Source: Bacteroidaceae bacterium (GTDB taxonomy: Bacteria; Bacteroidota; Bacteroidia; Bacteroidales; Bacteroidaceae). Taken from it: a stretch of 37,822 bases of DNA. The stretch's first letter is position 1, and each line of letters opens with the position of its first letter. The DNA lies in the NCBI GenBank assembly GCA_024401305.1, contig JAKSLI010000030.1:1-37822 (forward strand), written 5' to 3'. The notes below the pieces were generated by a model. That model searched no databases. It saw only the letters and a list, made by a program, of their open reading frames with translations, and was not told the DNA's origin. This document shows, one piece after another, positions 5,304 through 31,424 of the stretch. The position numbers were made by a program, and so were the translations under genes.

Positions 5304-5475
5304 GCCTCTCCCCCCAGCCCCCTCCCCGATTATGGGGAGGGGGAGTGATATGTTTTGTGGGAGGAATTATATCACTTGGTTTATTATGTATTTATATTGC
5401 CTCTATCCTGTAAATACACTTAAGTGTAACTACTCCCCCTCCCCATAATCGGGGAGGGGGTAAGGGGGGAGAGGC
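5304..5475. repeat. 172-bp intergenic element with nested inverted repeats (MITE- or REP-like)
   Basis: The ends (5304-5345 and 5433-5475) are inverted copies of each other: 28 bases pair perfectly and another 12 pair after a 2-3 base interruption. Each arm also contains its own hairpin: a 10-base C-rich/G-rich stem around a 6-base loop. The 87-base centre is AT-rich and holds a perfect 12-base palindrome, ACACTTAAGTGT, near 5418. The element fills almost the whole gap between the TonB-receptor stop (5478) and the nitroreductase start (5297). No coding sequence was seen in it. Confidence 0.8.
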
Positions 5476-5477
5476 CT

Positions 5478-7889
5478 TTAAAATTCAAATGTGACCTTTG
5501 CATTAAGCATTCGGCCGGTGAGATAATTAGGTACGGCGTACTGATGGTTTGTGACATCCGTTACCCAGTAATAGCTGTTTACATTGTTGATTCCAAGGAG
5601 GTTAAGGCAATCAATGCCAAGCCAGATGTTGCGGAAGAAGGCACGATGACCCTTGCGCTTGTTCTTCTGGGTAACCTCCCAATCCTTTATCTCCTGCTCG
5701 TTGTTGAGAAGTCGGTATGACATGCCGGCATCCACTCGCTTGTAAGCTGGAGCGCGGAATGGCATCTGCGAGAGATCGCGGTGGGGAGCGCCGAAAGGCA
5801 AACCGTCAGCGTATGCTATCTTCACGGACATCTTCCAGCGGTCGGTACCAGGGAAATAGTCGGTGAAGAAGAGATTGATGGCGTATCGCTGGTCTGAAGG
5901 CATCGGAATGCTCTTGCCGTTGAGATTCATGCGGGTGTTCATGAGCGAGAAGGATATCCAAGAGTCGGTGCCTTCCACGAACTCTCCGTAGAGTTTCATG
6001 TCCAATCCCATTGCGTGGCCGCTAACTTGCTGTGATGCGTCGTAAACAATCTTTACATTATTTACACTGTACGGAATGAGGTTCGAGAGCAACTTATAGT
6101 AAGCTTCTGCCGAGAACTTGAACTTTCTCTCGGCAAGTTTGAAGCGATAGTCGTAGGCAGCAATGAAATGAATTGAGCGTTGCGACTTGATCTTCTCGTT
6201 GAGTCGGGCGTAAGTGATTCCGTCGGTAGTTATCGTGTCACGAAGTTCCTTGAAGAAAGGCGCCTGATAGTAGATGCCCGTTGCGAAACGAAGTGTTACA
6301 TCGTTGTTGTAAGCAGGCACGACGGCAAGCGAAACACGTGGCGAAAGGATGCTTTCGTGATTGAAGTTCCAATGGGCAAAACGCAAGCCGTAGTTCAATG
6401 TGTAGAACGCATTCTCTCCTGGAGACATCCATTTGTAAGTGTCTTGCACGAAGGCTTCCACACGATTGGCTTTCAGTTCGTTGCGCGCATTGAGCGAATA
6501 AATCATGTCTAGTCGGTCGCCTGTGTGTGGCATTGTGTAGCCGGCAGAGTCGCGCATCTCGTATTCCTTGCTGTGCTCCTGGATGTGTTCCATCTTGTAT
6601 GTGAGTGCAGCAAGCCAGTCATGGTGCTGGTTCTTGTGCTGGAAAGACAGCTTGAGACTCTTTACATCAGCCTTCAGGTAGTTGCGGGCATGCTCTGCGT
6701 AAGTTCCAACGCCGAGATTTTCGGAAGTTTCTGTCTGTGTGAGCCAGTATTGTCCTTGTATATCGTATTTCTCCTGCTCGTTTGTGCGGAATGCAGAGCC
6801 GAGAATTTGCAGTTTCGTCTTGTCGGAAATGTTGTAAGTGAGTGCTGCACTTCCAAAATATGTTCGGAAGATGTCTTTCTCCCAACCGTCGAAATACACC
6901 TTGAAGCTCTTCACGCTTTCGAGTGTTCCGAACTTTGTCTCGCGACTTTCAGGCGTGAAATTGTAGTGGTTGTCGGAGATGTCACCGAGGAGTTCCAACT
7001 TCCAGCGTTTTGTCGGTTCGTAGGTGAGGTAGGTCTGGTAGTCAAGGAAGTTAGGATCGTACTCTGCCTTGTTGTCGCCTCCTCCGAGCATCATCTTGTT
7101 TGTCTTGTAGCGAATGCCGTTCTGCCAAGAGAACTTCTTGTTGCCGAAGCCCATGTGAGCAGAACCTCCGAGCAAGCTTCCCGTCACGGCAGCTTCGAAA
7201 GGCTTTGGCTTCTTGTATGTGATGTTCAGGGCAGATGACATCTTGTCGCCATACTTTGCCTCGAAACCACCAGTAGAGAAATCCACGCGCTCAACCATGT
7301 CCGGGTTGATGATGGAAAGTCCTTCCTGCTGACCACTACGCACAAGGAACGGACGGTAAATCTCCACATTATTAATATATACGGAGTTTTCGTCGAAAGA
7401 ACCGCCGCGAACATTATATTGTGAAGACAGTTCATTGTGAGTGGAAACGCCTGCCTGCTGCTGAATCATCTCTTCCACGGCATTGCCAGTAGTGGAAGGT
7501 CCACGCTTAACATCTTCAATGTCAAGCTTTTGCGACTGGTTTGTTTGGCGTCTTTCCTCAGTTACCGTAATTTCCGAGAGATTTTTGTTGTCATCGGAAA
7601 GTTGGATGAGAAAGGTCTGCTTGCCTTTCGGATTGCGGAGAACGCGAATCTTTGTCTTATAGCCAACAAGAGAGTATCTCACGACAACACTATCTGCAGT
7701 ATTTGCCGTGAGAACATATTCGCCTTGGAGGTTGGTCATTGTGGCTTTTCCTTGACTCGGAATTGCTACGGAACAGAACTCAATCGGGCTGCCGCTGTTG
7801 TCTGTGACGCGGCCTTGCAGAGTGAATGTCTGTGCGTTGATGCCAAGGAAGGCGAAGAGAAGGGGCAATATGAGGAGGAGCTTCTTCAA
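5478..7889 (-). CDS. TonB-dependent outer-membrane receptor with carboxypeptidase-regulatory-like domain
   Basis: An outer-membrane beta-barrel importer. After the signal peptide come a CarboxypepD-reg-like domain (about residues 20-100 from the start used here: FTLQGRVTDNSGSPIEFCSV), then the plug (AVEEMIQQQAGV, YNVRGGSFDENSVYINNVEI), and a barrel ending in the aromatic residue typical of outer-membrane proteins (LNAKVTFEF). No SusD-like partner lies nearby, so the ligand is unknown. I chose the TTG at 7889 because it gives a standard signal peptide (MKKLLLILPLLFAFLGINA, then Q). A GTG at 7925 would add 12 residues encoded by the intergenic hairpin repeat at 7903-7933, which is non-coding elsewhere. 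It follows the response regulator in the same direction. Confidence 0.88.
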   Translation of the reverse strand: MKKLLLILPLLFAFLGINAQTFTLQGRVTDNSGSPIEFCSVAIPSQGKATMTNLQGEYVLTANTADSVVVRYSLVGYKTKIRVLRNPKGKQTFLIQLSDDNKNLSEITVTEERRQTNQSQKLDIEDVKRGPSTTGNAVEEMIQQQAGVSTHNELSSQYNVRGGSFDENSVYINNVEIYRPFLVRSGQQEGLSIINPDMVERVDFSTGGFEAKYGDKMSSALNITYKKPKPFEAAVTGSLLGGSAHMGFGNKKFSWQNGIRYKTNKMMLGGGDNKAEYDPNFLDYQTYLTYEPTKRWKLELLGDISDNHYNFTPESRETKFGTLESVKSFKVYFDGWEKDIFRTYFGSAALTYNISDKTKLQILGSAFRTNEQEKYDIQGQYWLTQTETSENLGVGTYAEHARNYLKADVKSLKLSFQHKNQHHDWLAALTYKMEHIQEHSKEYEMRDSAGYTMPHTGDRLDMIYSLNARNELKANRVEAFVQDTYKWMSPGENAFYTLNYGLRFAHWNFNHESILSPRVSLAVVPAYNNDVTLRFATGIYYQAPFFKELRDTITTDGITYARLNEKIKSQRSIHFIAAYDYRFKLAERKFKFSAEAYYKLLSNLIPYSVNNVKIVYDASQQVSGHAMGLDMKLYGEFVEGTDSWISFSLMNTRMNLNGKSIPMPSDQRYAINLFFTDYFPGTDRWKMSVKIAYADGLPFGAPHRDLSQMPFRAPAYKRVDAGMSYRLLNNEQEIKDWEVTQKNKRKGHRAFFRNIWLGIDCLNLLGINNVNSYYWVTDVTNHQYAVPNYLTGRMLNAKVTFEF

Positions 7890-7902
7890 GAGGGAAGATA
7901 GT

Positions 7903-7933
7903 CCCGAAGCTGACGCTTCGGGCACGGGGGCTT
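7903..7933 (-). repeat. Modular hairpin repeat, subfamily 1, copy a
   Basis: On the minus strand, AGCCCCCGTGCCC is followed by a palindrome with stem CCGAAGC/GCTTCGG. It lies between the response-regulator stop and the receptor start. A partial leader, CCACCGTATC, directly follows the response-regulator stop codon. It is near-identical to the copy at 31394-31424. Confidence 0.75.
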
Positions 7934-7952
7934 ACCTTTTTAGATACGGTGG

Positions 7953-8678
7953 TTATTCCTCGTCTGGATGGAGGTTGTCAACATCAATGATGCGAAGCTC
8001 GCAAGCACGAGTGACAAGGCGAGTGGCATTGATGCCGATGCCGAAGTTTCCAGAAGGGAAGAGCTTCTGGATGAGTTCGTTCTGACGCTTCTCCAAACTC
8101 TTCACGCCGAAAGGCATTCCGCGGAGATTAGTTATCTGCTCCTTCGTGTAACCAAGGGCGAGATGGCGAAGGAAACGCTCGTCGTATTCATCAATATCGT
8201 AGTTTACAAGAGCATCGCCACGCATCATTTCCGTGTTTACGCTGCGCTTGTAACGATTGATGATCTTTTCCATGATAGGCTGGTTGAATACCATTCGCTT
8301 GCCTTTCATAACAGAAATCACATCGTTGCGAGTGAGCAGTTCGCCGCTCTTAAGTGAAATTCCGTCGCAACCGGCGTCGAGAACATCTACCCAGAGCTTC
8401 TCGTTATGAATCTCTCCTGTGAAGATGATGATCTTCACTTCCGGATATTTCTGCTTGCACTCGCGACAAATCTCCACGCCGATTGTTGTGGAACCGCCGA
8501 GACCGAGGTCAAGGAGCAGAAGATCAGGCTGCTGCTTGTTGATGATTCGCCAGAATTCAGTTTCGTTCTGAGCGGTGCCAATAATCTCAGCTTCAGGGAT
8601 TTCTGCTTTTATGAGGCCTTCAGTGCCTTTCAGTTCGAGAGGCACATCTTCTACGATAATGATTTTGAAGTTGTCCAT
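7953..8678 (-). CDS. Response regulator with N-terminal receiver domain
   Basis: A 241-residue two-component response regulator. The receiver domain (about 1-125) is complete: acidic pair E10/D11, phospho-acceptor D57 in LLLLDLGLGG, T87 in IIFTGE, and K110 in SLKSG. The C-terminal part (about 160-241) has a helical segment, DERFLRHLALGYTKEQITNL, reminiscent of the LuxR/FixJ helix-turn-helix, but the match is loose. It is therefore best called a probable DNA-binding regulator. No histidine kinase is adjacent, so it is an orphan in this window. Its start is preceded by two tandem hairpin repeats and its stop is followed by a third, in a run from hisB to the TonB receptor. Confidence 0.82.
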   Translation of the reverse strand: MDNFKIIIVEDVPLELKGTEGLIKAEIPEAEIIGTAQNETEFWRIINKQQPDLLLLDLGLGGSTTIGVEICRECKQKYPEVKIIIFTGEIHNEKLWVDVLDAGCDGISLKSGELLTRNDVISVMKGKRMVFNQPIMEKIINRYKRSVNTEMMRGDALVNYDIDEYDERFLRHLALGYTKEQITNLRGMPFGVKSLEKRQNELIQKLFPSGNFGIGINATRLVTRACELRIIDVDNLHPDEE

Positions 8679-8698
8679 GGGGTGTTTATGGATTTTGA

Positions 8699-8729
8699 CC
8701 TCGCATGAATGCGAGGGAACGGTGGCTAT
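8699..8729 (-). repeat. Modular hairpin repeat, subfamily 1, copy b
   Basis: On the minus strand, AGCCACCGTTCC is followed by a palindrome with stem CCTCGCAT/ATGCGAGG. It lies 20 bases before the response-regulator start codon. It shares its leader exactly with the neighbouring copy at 8734-8764, but has an unrelated stem sequence. Confidence 0.75.
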
Positions 8730-8733
8730 TGAA

Positions 8734-8764
8734 CCAACGGATAAGCGTTGGGAACGGTGGCTAT
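8734..8764 (-). repeat. Modular hairpin repeat, subfamily 1, copy c, overlapping the hisB stop
   Basis: On the minus strand, TAGCCACCGTTCC is followed by a palindrome with stem CCAACG/CGTTGG. The TAG is the hisB stop codon, so the element begins inside the stop. Together with copy b it makes a tandem pair between hisB and the response regulator. Confidence 0.75.
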
Positions 8765-9828
8765 AGAGTGCCTTTTGTTGAAGGGAGGTTGAAATTGTAG
8801 ATGTCGCGGCGCACAGCGTTCTTTATTGCGCGAGCAAGAGCCTTGAAGATGCCTTCTATCTTGTGATGCTCGTTCTCGCCGCGTGCCTTTATGTAGAGGT
8901 TCATCTTTGCTGCGTCGGAGAAACTCTTGAAGAAATGGAGGAACATCTCCGTTGGCATGTCGCCGACCTTCTCGCGTTTGAACTCTGCGTCCCACACAAG
9001 CCATGGGCGACCACCGAAGTCGAGTGCCACTTCGCATTGGCAGTCATCCATTGGAAGGAAATATCCGTAGCGTTCAATGCCACGCTTATCGCCGAGAGCC
9101 TTGAGGATGCACTCGCCGAGAGCGATGCCGGTATCTTCTATCGTATGGTGTTCATCGACATTGAGGTCGCCTTTCGTGTGAACATAAAGGTCGAGGTTGC
9201 CGTGCTTGCCGATTTGTTCAAGCATGTGGTCGAAGAAACCGAGGCCGGTTTCGATGTCGCATTTGCCGGAACCGTTCAGGTCAACGGATACCTTTATCTG
9301 GGTTTCCTTTGTGTTACGCTCAACAGTTGCTTTGCGTTCGCCAGCGAAGAGGATCTCTGCGATGCCGTCCCAATCGAGGTCGGCTGAGAGGATGAGGGAT
9401 TTGCAACCGAGGTTTACGGCAAGTTGAGCGTCGGTTTCGCGGTCGCCGATGACATAGCTATTGGCAAGGTCGTATTCAGGATTGTTGATGTATTCCGTGA
9501 GCATACCTGTGCCTGGCTTGCGGCAAGGGTGATTGTCCTCAGGGAAATGACGGTCAATATGAATCTTGTCAAACACAACACCTTCGCTTTCAAGGGTTTG
9601 GAGCACGAAATTGTGTGTTGGCCAGAATGTTTCTTCTGGATAAGAGTCAGTGCCAAGTCCGTCCTGGTTGCTTACCATGACGAACATGAAGTCGGTCTTT
9701 TCGCGGATGAAAGCGAGATTCTTGAAAACGCCTTTCTTGAACTTGAGTTTCTCCCAAGCGTCAATCTGCTCGTCTTCTGGCTCCTCGATTAGAGTGCCGT
9801 CGCGGTCTATGAATAGTATCTTTTTCAT
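8761..9828 (-). CDS. hisB: Bifunctional histidinol-phosphatase / imidazoleglycerol-phosphate dehydratase
   Basis: Catalyses two steps of histidine biosynthesis in the cytoplasm. The N-terminal HAD phosphatase half (about 1-165) has FIDRDGTL (D8 and D10) and VSNQDGLG. The C-terminal IGP dehydratase half has [30 protein letters not shown] and [18 protein letters not shown], the metal-binding His/Glu motifs. In the phosphatase half the zinc loop of E. coli HisB (C-x-H-x5-C-x-C) reads D-x-H-x5-H-x-C, so the classical site is altered. I start at the ATG at 9828, which overlaps the stop of the small upstream gene by 4 bases; an upstream in-frame start at 9855 would add nine residues. No other his gene is in the window. 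Confidence 0.95.
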
Positions 9829-16557: not shown

Positions 16558-16670
16558 TCGCAGCAGCTGCGAGGCTAAAGGGTAATGGCTAAAGGGTAAA
16601 GGCACCATCCGGATGGGAAGCCTTTAGCCTTTAGCTTTTAGCCTTTACCCTCAAGTTTCGCGAAACTTGA
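16558..16670 (+). repeat. Composite hairpin repeat, subfamily 2, between the DUF386 gene and glgB
   Basis: Three palindromes are seen in order: TCGCAG/CTGCGA at 16558-16572, the perfect 12-mer CCATCCGGATGG at 16605-16616, and the perfect 20-mer TCAAGTTTCGCGAAACTTGA at 16651-16670. Between them, GGCTAAAGGGTAA-type units on the left are inverted relative to GCCTTTAGCC/GCCTTTACCC units on the right, so much of it can fold into one large hairpin. The last module, AGCCTTTACCC plus palindrome, lies 13 bases before the glgB start and matches the element before engB. Confidence 0.8.
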
Positions 16671-31352: not shown

Positions 31353-31393
31353 ATTATCTTGGTTTTTAGTTTTTAGTTCTTGGTTATTGGGGA

Positions 31394-31424
31394 TCCGAAG
31401 CTGATGCTTCGGACACGGGGGCTT
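31394..31424 (-). repeat. Modular hairpin repeat, subfamily 1, copy d
   Basis: On the minus strand, AGCCCCCGTGTCC is followed by a palindrome with stem CCGAAGC/GCTTCGG. It lies directly after the glgA stop codon (TAA, then AAAGCC) and before glgP. It is close to copy a at 7903, 23 kb away. Confidence 0.75.

Follow-up and report, generated by a model that had tools for sequence, protein, structure and literature searches.

A many-copy hairpin family with a conserved leader and freely varying, self-paired stems, associated with one clade of Y1 transposases in a Prevotella-like genome

TnpAREP proteins act on REP hairpins in single-stranded form, and for the group 3 pairs Sm and Mb, changing stem bases to their complement had limited effect, mismatches strongly cut cleavage, and activity depended critically on particular loop bases (PMC8266576, in the sections available). 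CGTC-tagged repeats have been reported in Bacteroidetes (PMC3733652, available part), and structured RNAs are known, some of them in Prevotella near uvrC (PMC8040213, available part). A literature search by title and opening lines, with supplements and most subscription journals outside its scope, found no description in Prevotella of the family presented here; earlier notice is possible.

We analysed a contig of 37,822 nucleotides (JAKSLI010000030.1, C40; hereafter the window, meaning this whole stretch) from a Bacteroidaceae genome of 3.2 Mb in 115 contigs that is 86% complete. It carries an element of about 30 nt in which a leader, AGCC[A/C]CCGT[T/G]C, precedes a hairpin with a 6–8 bp stem and a loop of about 4 nt. 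The initial annotation had claimed four copies sharing a leader while differing in stems that nevertheless pair with themselves. All four were recovered on the minus strand by a covariance model (R1), and each has AGCC[A/C]CCGT[T/G][C/T] followed by a stem beginning CC. The stems do differ and do self-pair (CCTCGCA/TTCA/TGCGAGG, CCAACG..CGTTGG, and CCGAAGC/GTCA or ATCA/GCTTCGG). The features are:

7902..7933, minus strand: copy A, leader AGCCCCCGTGC, stem CCGAAGC, loop GTCA (R1 E 5.7e-9); its neighbours, by Pfam, are a response-regulator gene and a TonB-receptor-like gene
7946..7955, minus strand: possible decayed leader TAACCACCGT without a hairpin (one-mismatch leader match at 7954)
8697..8728, minus strand: copy B, leader AGCCACCGTTC, stem CCTCGCA, loop TTCA (R1 E 5.2e-8)
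8732..8763, minus strand: copy C, leader AGCCACCGTTC, stem CCAACG (R1 E 8.4e-9); contains the hisB TAG
31393..31424, minus strand: copy D, leader AGCCCCCGTGT, stem CCGAAGC, loop ATCA (R1 E 5.3e-8)

The reported overlap between a leader and the hisB stop is real: the first bases of copy C are the hisB TAG, and the called gene ends at 8761. Copies C and B, in that order, form a tandem pair spaced 35 nt apart, and copy D lies 1 nt past a glycogen-synthase stop, ahead of a phosphorylase gene (neighbours by Pfam). A start within a few bases of a stop codon, also claimed, holds for two of the four copies and fails for the other two (19 and 32 nt). The possible decayed leader overlaps the TAA of the response-regulator gene and gave no R1 match at E ≤ 0.1. 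No Rfam family was found in the window at the gathering score. A different, G+C-rich palindrome, CCCCCTCCCCGATTATGGGGAGGGGG, occupies 5316–5345, and runs of imperfect repeats of the GGCTAAAGGCTAAAAGCTAAAGG type occur in the gaps at 16600–16660 and upstream of the match at locus L011.

R1 was built from 43 copies picked partly for pairing. The genome-wide covariance search that the initial annotation had proposed returned 116 matches at E ≤ 0.01 in the 3.2 Mb and 130 at E ≤ 0.1; the 116 were classified and the 14 with E between 0.01 and 0.1 left out. The leader is itself found beyond chance expectation, since the pattern AGCCMCCGTNNCC has 40 matches in the genome compared with 6 for its reversed form. 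Because the model copies were partly selected for pairing, we used these 40 leader-only copies, which include one match without such a stem (L018), as a clean pairing test. Among them, 241 of 280 stem cells pair, whereas in 2000 shuffles of the 3′ arms the count averages 178 and never exceeds 201. In 28/40, the other arm of the copy is a perfect complement of its four variable stem bases (5.9 when shuffled, maximum 12). The second loop position is T in 38 of the 40. In the 100 full-length (32-nt) matches, 27 different six-base 5′ arms occur and the loop T is present in 97. The leader tetramer over the 116 matches is CCGT in 87, CTGT in 19, CAGT in 6 and another in 4, and GT[AG]G occurs within the first 14 nt of none of them. 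Close same-strand pairs, the only pairs listed for this genome, are direct tandems 33–42 nt apart, with one pair 60 nt apart. As a whole, the observation made in the initial annotation is confirmed.

The family extends to related genomes. Matches at E ≤ 0.01 were found in 25 of 60 same-genus genomes, our own included, and in none of 40 genomes from other genera; copy counts in the relatives were obtained with stricter filters and are lower bounds. Of 28 classified loci in relatives, 16 are coding in the sense direction and in the ATVP frame described below, 1 is sense in another frame, 3 are antisense and 8 were called intergenic, although at least two of these eight (L095 and L099) lie within a Y1 transposase gene and several of the weakest are poor matches. 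Host genes in relatives, as read from their proteins, include those for alanyl- and methionyl-tRNA synthetases and exonuclease VII. In two relatives the copies are clustered: all nine in G037 are on the plus strand of one 104-kb contig (C37), and 7 of 20 in G040 are on a single contig (C33). A mobile island or a binning mix is possible in both cases.

One relative, G045, is a complete chromosome. Its family is uniform, a GCGAT stem core being common to 27 copies selected by leader. Their outermost pair is C-G in 13, A-T in 8, G-C in 3 and T-A in 3, with no mismatch, in a tally taken from stretches around R1 matches, so that badly paired copies elsewhere could be missed; a 28th row, a shifted, off-register match, was left out. 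Of its 24 R1 copies, 23 were fetched, and ten of these have genes of their own strand on both sides, the rest being convergent, opposed, antisense or at a Y1 gene. We also tried a reading by replication strand. By hand count, the G-rich strand carries 19 of the 27 copies, a further copy at a boundary being scored as not on it (one-sided p 0.026, with copies that are not independent), which is suggestive only, and the reading was not retained. The overall GC skew, sampled at 20 points, flips sign near 1.0 and 2.8 Mb and the skew at four-fold sites disagrees; a post hoc split into half-genomes places 23/27 copies together but is mismatched to the skew.

In our own genome, 66 of the 116 copies are intergenic and 50 are inside called genes. 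The claim that all copies lie in gaps is thus correct for the four window copies and incorrect genome-wide. Genes were called with a codon-model caller that missed the Y1 genes of G045 (L302), L095 and L099, so copies inside those three genes were tallied as intergenic. The sense-strand bias noted for the window copies extends to the genome: 59 of the 66 intergenic copies lie between two genes of their own strand, 3 between two genes of the opposite strand, 3 where only the downstream gene is on their strand, and 1 with none called downstream. Counted as gaps, with the copies of each gap merged, these classes number 49, 1, 3 and 1. One gap between minus-strand genes (G000:C62:15467-15894) holds three plus-strand copies, an exception to the sense rule. 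Intergenic copies have a median distance of 31 nt to the stop upstream and 43 nt to the start downstream. Inside genes, 48 copies (30 genes) are sense and 2 (2 genes) antisense. Sense bias is weaker in G045 than in our own genome, and a strict sense rule is doubtful because orientation is mixed both in G045 and at the Y1 genes.

All 48 sense coding copies are read in one frame, GCC-ACC-GTT-CCC, giving A-T-V-P (ATVPxxxxSG-like), and the two antisense copies encode EADASGTV and PDANASGTVA. This frame lock is not forced by stop codons, because five of the six frames are mostly open: of the full-length copies that code in sense, 42, 40 and 38 are free of stops in the three sense frames, and 23, 42 and 37 in the antisense frames (this count uses 32-nt matches only, which are 42 of the 48 sense coding and 56 of the 66 intergenic copies). 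Neighbouring copies are spaced by a multiple of three in 12/12 coding cases against 3/12 intergenic ones (Fisher 3e-4), and by 36 nt in 9 of the 12 coding cases. Small residues abound in both of the frames that this genome uses, sense ATVPEASASG and antisense PEADASGTVA, and tolerance of the peptide plausibly sets the frame. Such tolerance does not explain the sense bias (30 genes versus 2; 59 intergenic copies versus 3). Even if 70% of sites are assumed to favour the sense direction, p is 1e-3 for genes and 8e-7 for intergenic copies, with copies that are not fully independent.

The 32 host genes comprise 30 scanned against Pfam, ArgS, which was compared with solved structures, and L136, which was left out. 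Methionine synthase (at two sites), PriA, ComEC, a GH43 enzyme and a CbiG-methylase fusion have copies that separate Pfam domains. In QueA, a pseudouridine synthase, a carbon-nitrogen hydrolase, a polyprenyl synthase and an ABC-F-like protein, copies are located within a domain; the RecQ copy is at the end of the zinc-binding domain. The ArgS insert is missing from all 29 other same-genus orthologues aligned. It sits in a length-variable stretch, with a net gain of 8 residues over most orthologues and edges that are not clean. On the 3′ side of hisB, no R1 match was found in any of the 80 relatives fetched, 30 of which were also displayed; the set contains four R1 matches at E ≤ 1, none at a hisB 3′ end. 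Among the hisB relatives fetched, the closest come from Prevotellaceae assemblies, the best at 81% identity. Conserved synteny 3′ of hisB was considered, and none was seen among these relatives.

The initial annotation had also advised looking for a RAYT/TnpA-REP transposase. Our own genome has two Y1_Tnp matches above the Pfam cut-off, in ORFs of 326 and 411 aa, and both proteins match the NCBIfam model for REP-associated tyrosine transposases below its cut-off. Pfam Y1_Tnp matches 16 of 24 members of this Y1 family at E ≤ 1. By a profile of these two proteins (A2), 32 of 60 same-genus genomes and 1 of 40 others have the family. With the same profile, about six divergent Y1-family loci appear in our own genome, on contigs C34, C72, C85, C87, C88 and C91. 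The family is carried by 15/15 same-genus genomes with at least two copies of the hairpin, compared with 17/45 of the rest (Fisher 1e-5, ignoring phylogeny); with a threshold of one copy, the figures are 20/25 and 12/35.

Hairpins are also physically linked to the transposase genes. The 31 Y1 loci examined are those from 30 of the 33 genomes with a match, one locus each, plus L031 from our own genome. At E ≤ 0.003, 8 of the 31 have a copy within the Y1 gene or no more than about 150 nt from it (L177, L165, L163, L179, L169, L180, L166 and L183). L169 has three copies, one 5′ of the gene, one inside and one 3′. Relative to the Y1 gene, copies are sense at L165, L177, L179 and L180 and antisense at L163, L166, L169 and L183, the antisense copy being inside the gene at L163, L169 and L183 and beside it at L166. 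Six loci (L163, L165, L169, L177, L180 and L183) have a copy inside a Y1 ORF that remains open; by position, the first five lie between the HUH and Y motifs and that of L183 near the C-terminus. The own-genome copy adjoining the Y1 gene L031 is degenerate (E 0.27) and is absent from the locus scan at E ≤ 1. The eight linked loci and L031 all group in one 11-row clade of a tree built from 25 Y1 proteins (support 100/98), and the 14 rows outside it have no R1 match at E ≤ 0.1, the nearest being a weak match near L172 (E 0.15). Clade and linkage are associated (Fisher 2.7e-5), a value that uses 9 of 11 and includes the weak own-genome copy. Six loci (L181 and L184–L188) were left out of the tree by an ORF filter, and none of them has an R1 match at E ≤ 1.

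An alignment of 24 Y1 rows (326–469 aa) has H98, H100, Y166, N170, P171 and R173 invariant, with motifs PDH[LIM]H and mostly Y[LV]xDNPRR. The closest Y1 type, taken as a stretch at least 64% identical to L031, is present in G001 and G009, where the strict scan found no copy at E ≤ 0.01 (G009 has one beside the Y1 gene), and absent from four genomes with 5–11 copies (G059, G033, G050 and G022). We considered a DprA-like C-terminal domain in the Y1 protein and keep it only as a lead, as the profile matches are weak (IS200/605 E 0.075, DprA E 0.68). In the proteins of L031, L162 and L169, the Y1 part is followed by a conserved domain that matches the DprA profile very weakly.

We conclude that the element is probably a REP-like mobile hairpin, non-autonomous and dependent on a RAYT/TnpAREP-like Y1 transposase for its movement. 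Copy number, covariation, the loop T, the frame lock, absence from orthologous sites, and association and linkage with one Y1 clade are direct observations; from them we infer mobility and the role of the Y1 protein. A same-genus transposase of the HUH (Y1) type would bind the element as single-stranded DNA. It would read two conserved features, the leader (usually CCGT[T/G]C) and T as the second loop base, and would need a paired stem rather than particular stem letters. Copies with matching arms would be mobilised and amplified, so that stem subfamilies drift while pairing is kept. As the core's length of 30 nt is divisible by three and most of its frames lack stops, copies landing in protein loops or linkers could survive, the tolerated frames being innocuous (ATVPxxxxSG and, from the opposite strand, PEADASGTVA). 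The constancy of leader and loop T, beside a stem that varies but stays paired, fits the measured specificity of group 3 TnpAREP (PMC8266576). The sense bias is not readily given by replication-strand targeting or peptide tolerance alone, and insertion into the non-template strand or selection at the RNA level are candidate causes. A single-strand transposase might target the exposed non-template DNA of transcribed genes, so that insertion tracks transcription, with arm-onto-arm hairpin copying adding new stems; this would account for 48/50 sense coding copies and for 59 versus 3 copies in co-directional gaps, but we regard it as rather doubtful.

The interpretation offered in the initial annotation is partly supported. 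Its REP-like half gains from the many copies, the associated Y1 transposase family and the copies adjoining and inside Y1 genes. Its other half, a stop-codon-linked mRNA element for 3′-end processing or coupling, is unsupported as a general function. The hairpin and leader could act in operon transcripts, in stability, 3′-end formation or coupling, and be selected in the sense direction, as the excess of copies (or gaps) flanked by own-strand genes and the short distances to stop and start codons would suggest. Yet 50 of the 116 copies are inside genes and translated in frame, which argues against an element dedicated to stop codons or mRNA 3′ ends, and the absence of a copy at hisB in the 80 relatives and the mixed orientation in G045 point the same way. 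A terminator reading was likewise set aside: 7700–8950, a region spanning three of the four window copies, has no terminator-like site on the sense strand, and two such sites overlap copy A on the other strand. We consider an mRNA element unlikely.

Arm concordance could also arise by quasi-palindrome correction, in which template switching during replication copies one arm onto the other, with neither selection nor a transposase, and recombination and slippage spread the copies. The four Watson-Crick pair types at one position in the 27 G045 copies, with no mismatched intermediate, and the existence of tandem arrays are what this process would leave, but transposition of paired copies only would likewise leave no intermediates. 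Correction accounts for concordant arms, not for dispersal into 32 genes and about 50 gaps, and leaves the tie to one Y1 clade unexplained; we consider it improbable. Still less credible, to the point of being very improbable, is a linker repeat (ATVPEASASG-like) selected as a peptide, with the hairpin as by-product and intergenic copies as pseudogene remains. The single frame of the sense coding copies and their 36-nt spacing would suit it, but a peptide has no need of stem pairing, the host proteins are unrelated, 66 copies are intergenic, and 9 of the 12 intergenic spacings are not divisible by three.

If the mobile-hairpin reading is right, a Prevotella-like genome has had peptides put into about 30 proteins, which by their domains include putative ArgS, RecQ, PriA, ComEC and MetH. 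The palindromes of Rickettsia are a parallel case of in-frame insertion into genes, alike in how they work without the present family being a member. The family also provides a large natural set of stem variants for one transposase family, which makes a rule of reading leader and loop while requiring only pairing of the stem directly testable.

Among known systems, the hairpin shares with REP/RAYT a dispersed palindrome, a genomic Y1 HUH transposase and a repeat at the transposase gene (only weakly so in our own genome). It has no GT[AG]G tag at the 5′ foot of the stem, its leader is about 11 nt, and its stem letters vary widely inside one genome. Subclass 2.4 is alike in several respects (Quentin et al. 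2018, PMC6006769, available part): a short, many-copy hairpin with a conserved 5′ foot, repeats beside and inside the Y1 HUH gene, and in-frame copies both between the HUH and Y motifs and in other genes. Here too, insertions between these motifs keep the transposase gene open. The motifs themselves differ, being DH[LIM]H and mostly Y[LV]xDNPRR here and NH[IFV]H and YIxNNP in the sections of that paper available. Group 3 Sm and Mb resemble the family in their perfect short palindrome and in the requirement of Mb for T at loop position 2, but have a GTAG foot and come from Stenotrophomonas and Marinomonas (PMC8266576, available part). The CGTC-tagged REPs and rickettsial RPE-4 and RPE-6 have comparable stems (8 or 9 bp), loops (4 or 5) and in-frame gene copies, some in DNA repair genes (PMC3733652, available part). 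Instead of a CGTC, TGTC or CCTC end motif with A-T pairs at the stem base, the family has a CGT[T/G] foot, and stem-base pairs 2 and 3 are C-G in 43 and 40 of 43 rows, all preselected for CCGT[T/G][C/T]C. A Y1 transposase is linked to the present family, whereas the available part of that report found none dedicated to CGTC REPs. As in REPIN/BIME doublets, one inverted pair exists, in G045 (L306), whereas the close pairs of our own genome (same-strand pairs only being listed) are direct tandems. We consider the family a variant assembled from known REP/RAYT parts, set apart by how they are combined, by the lack of a GTAG tag and by its free stems.
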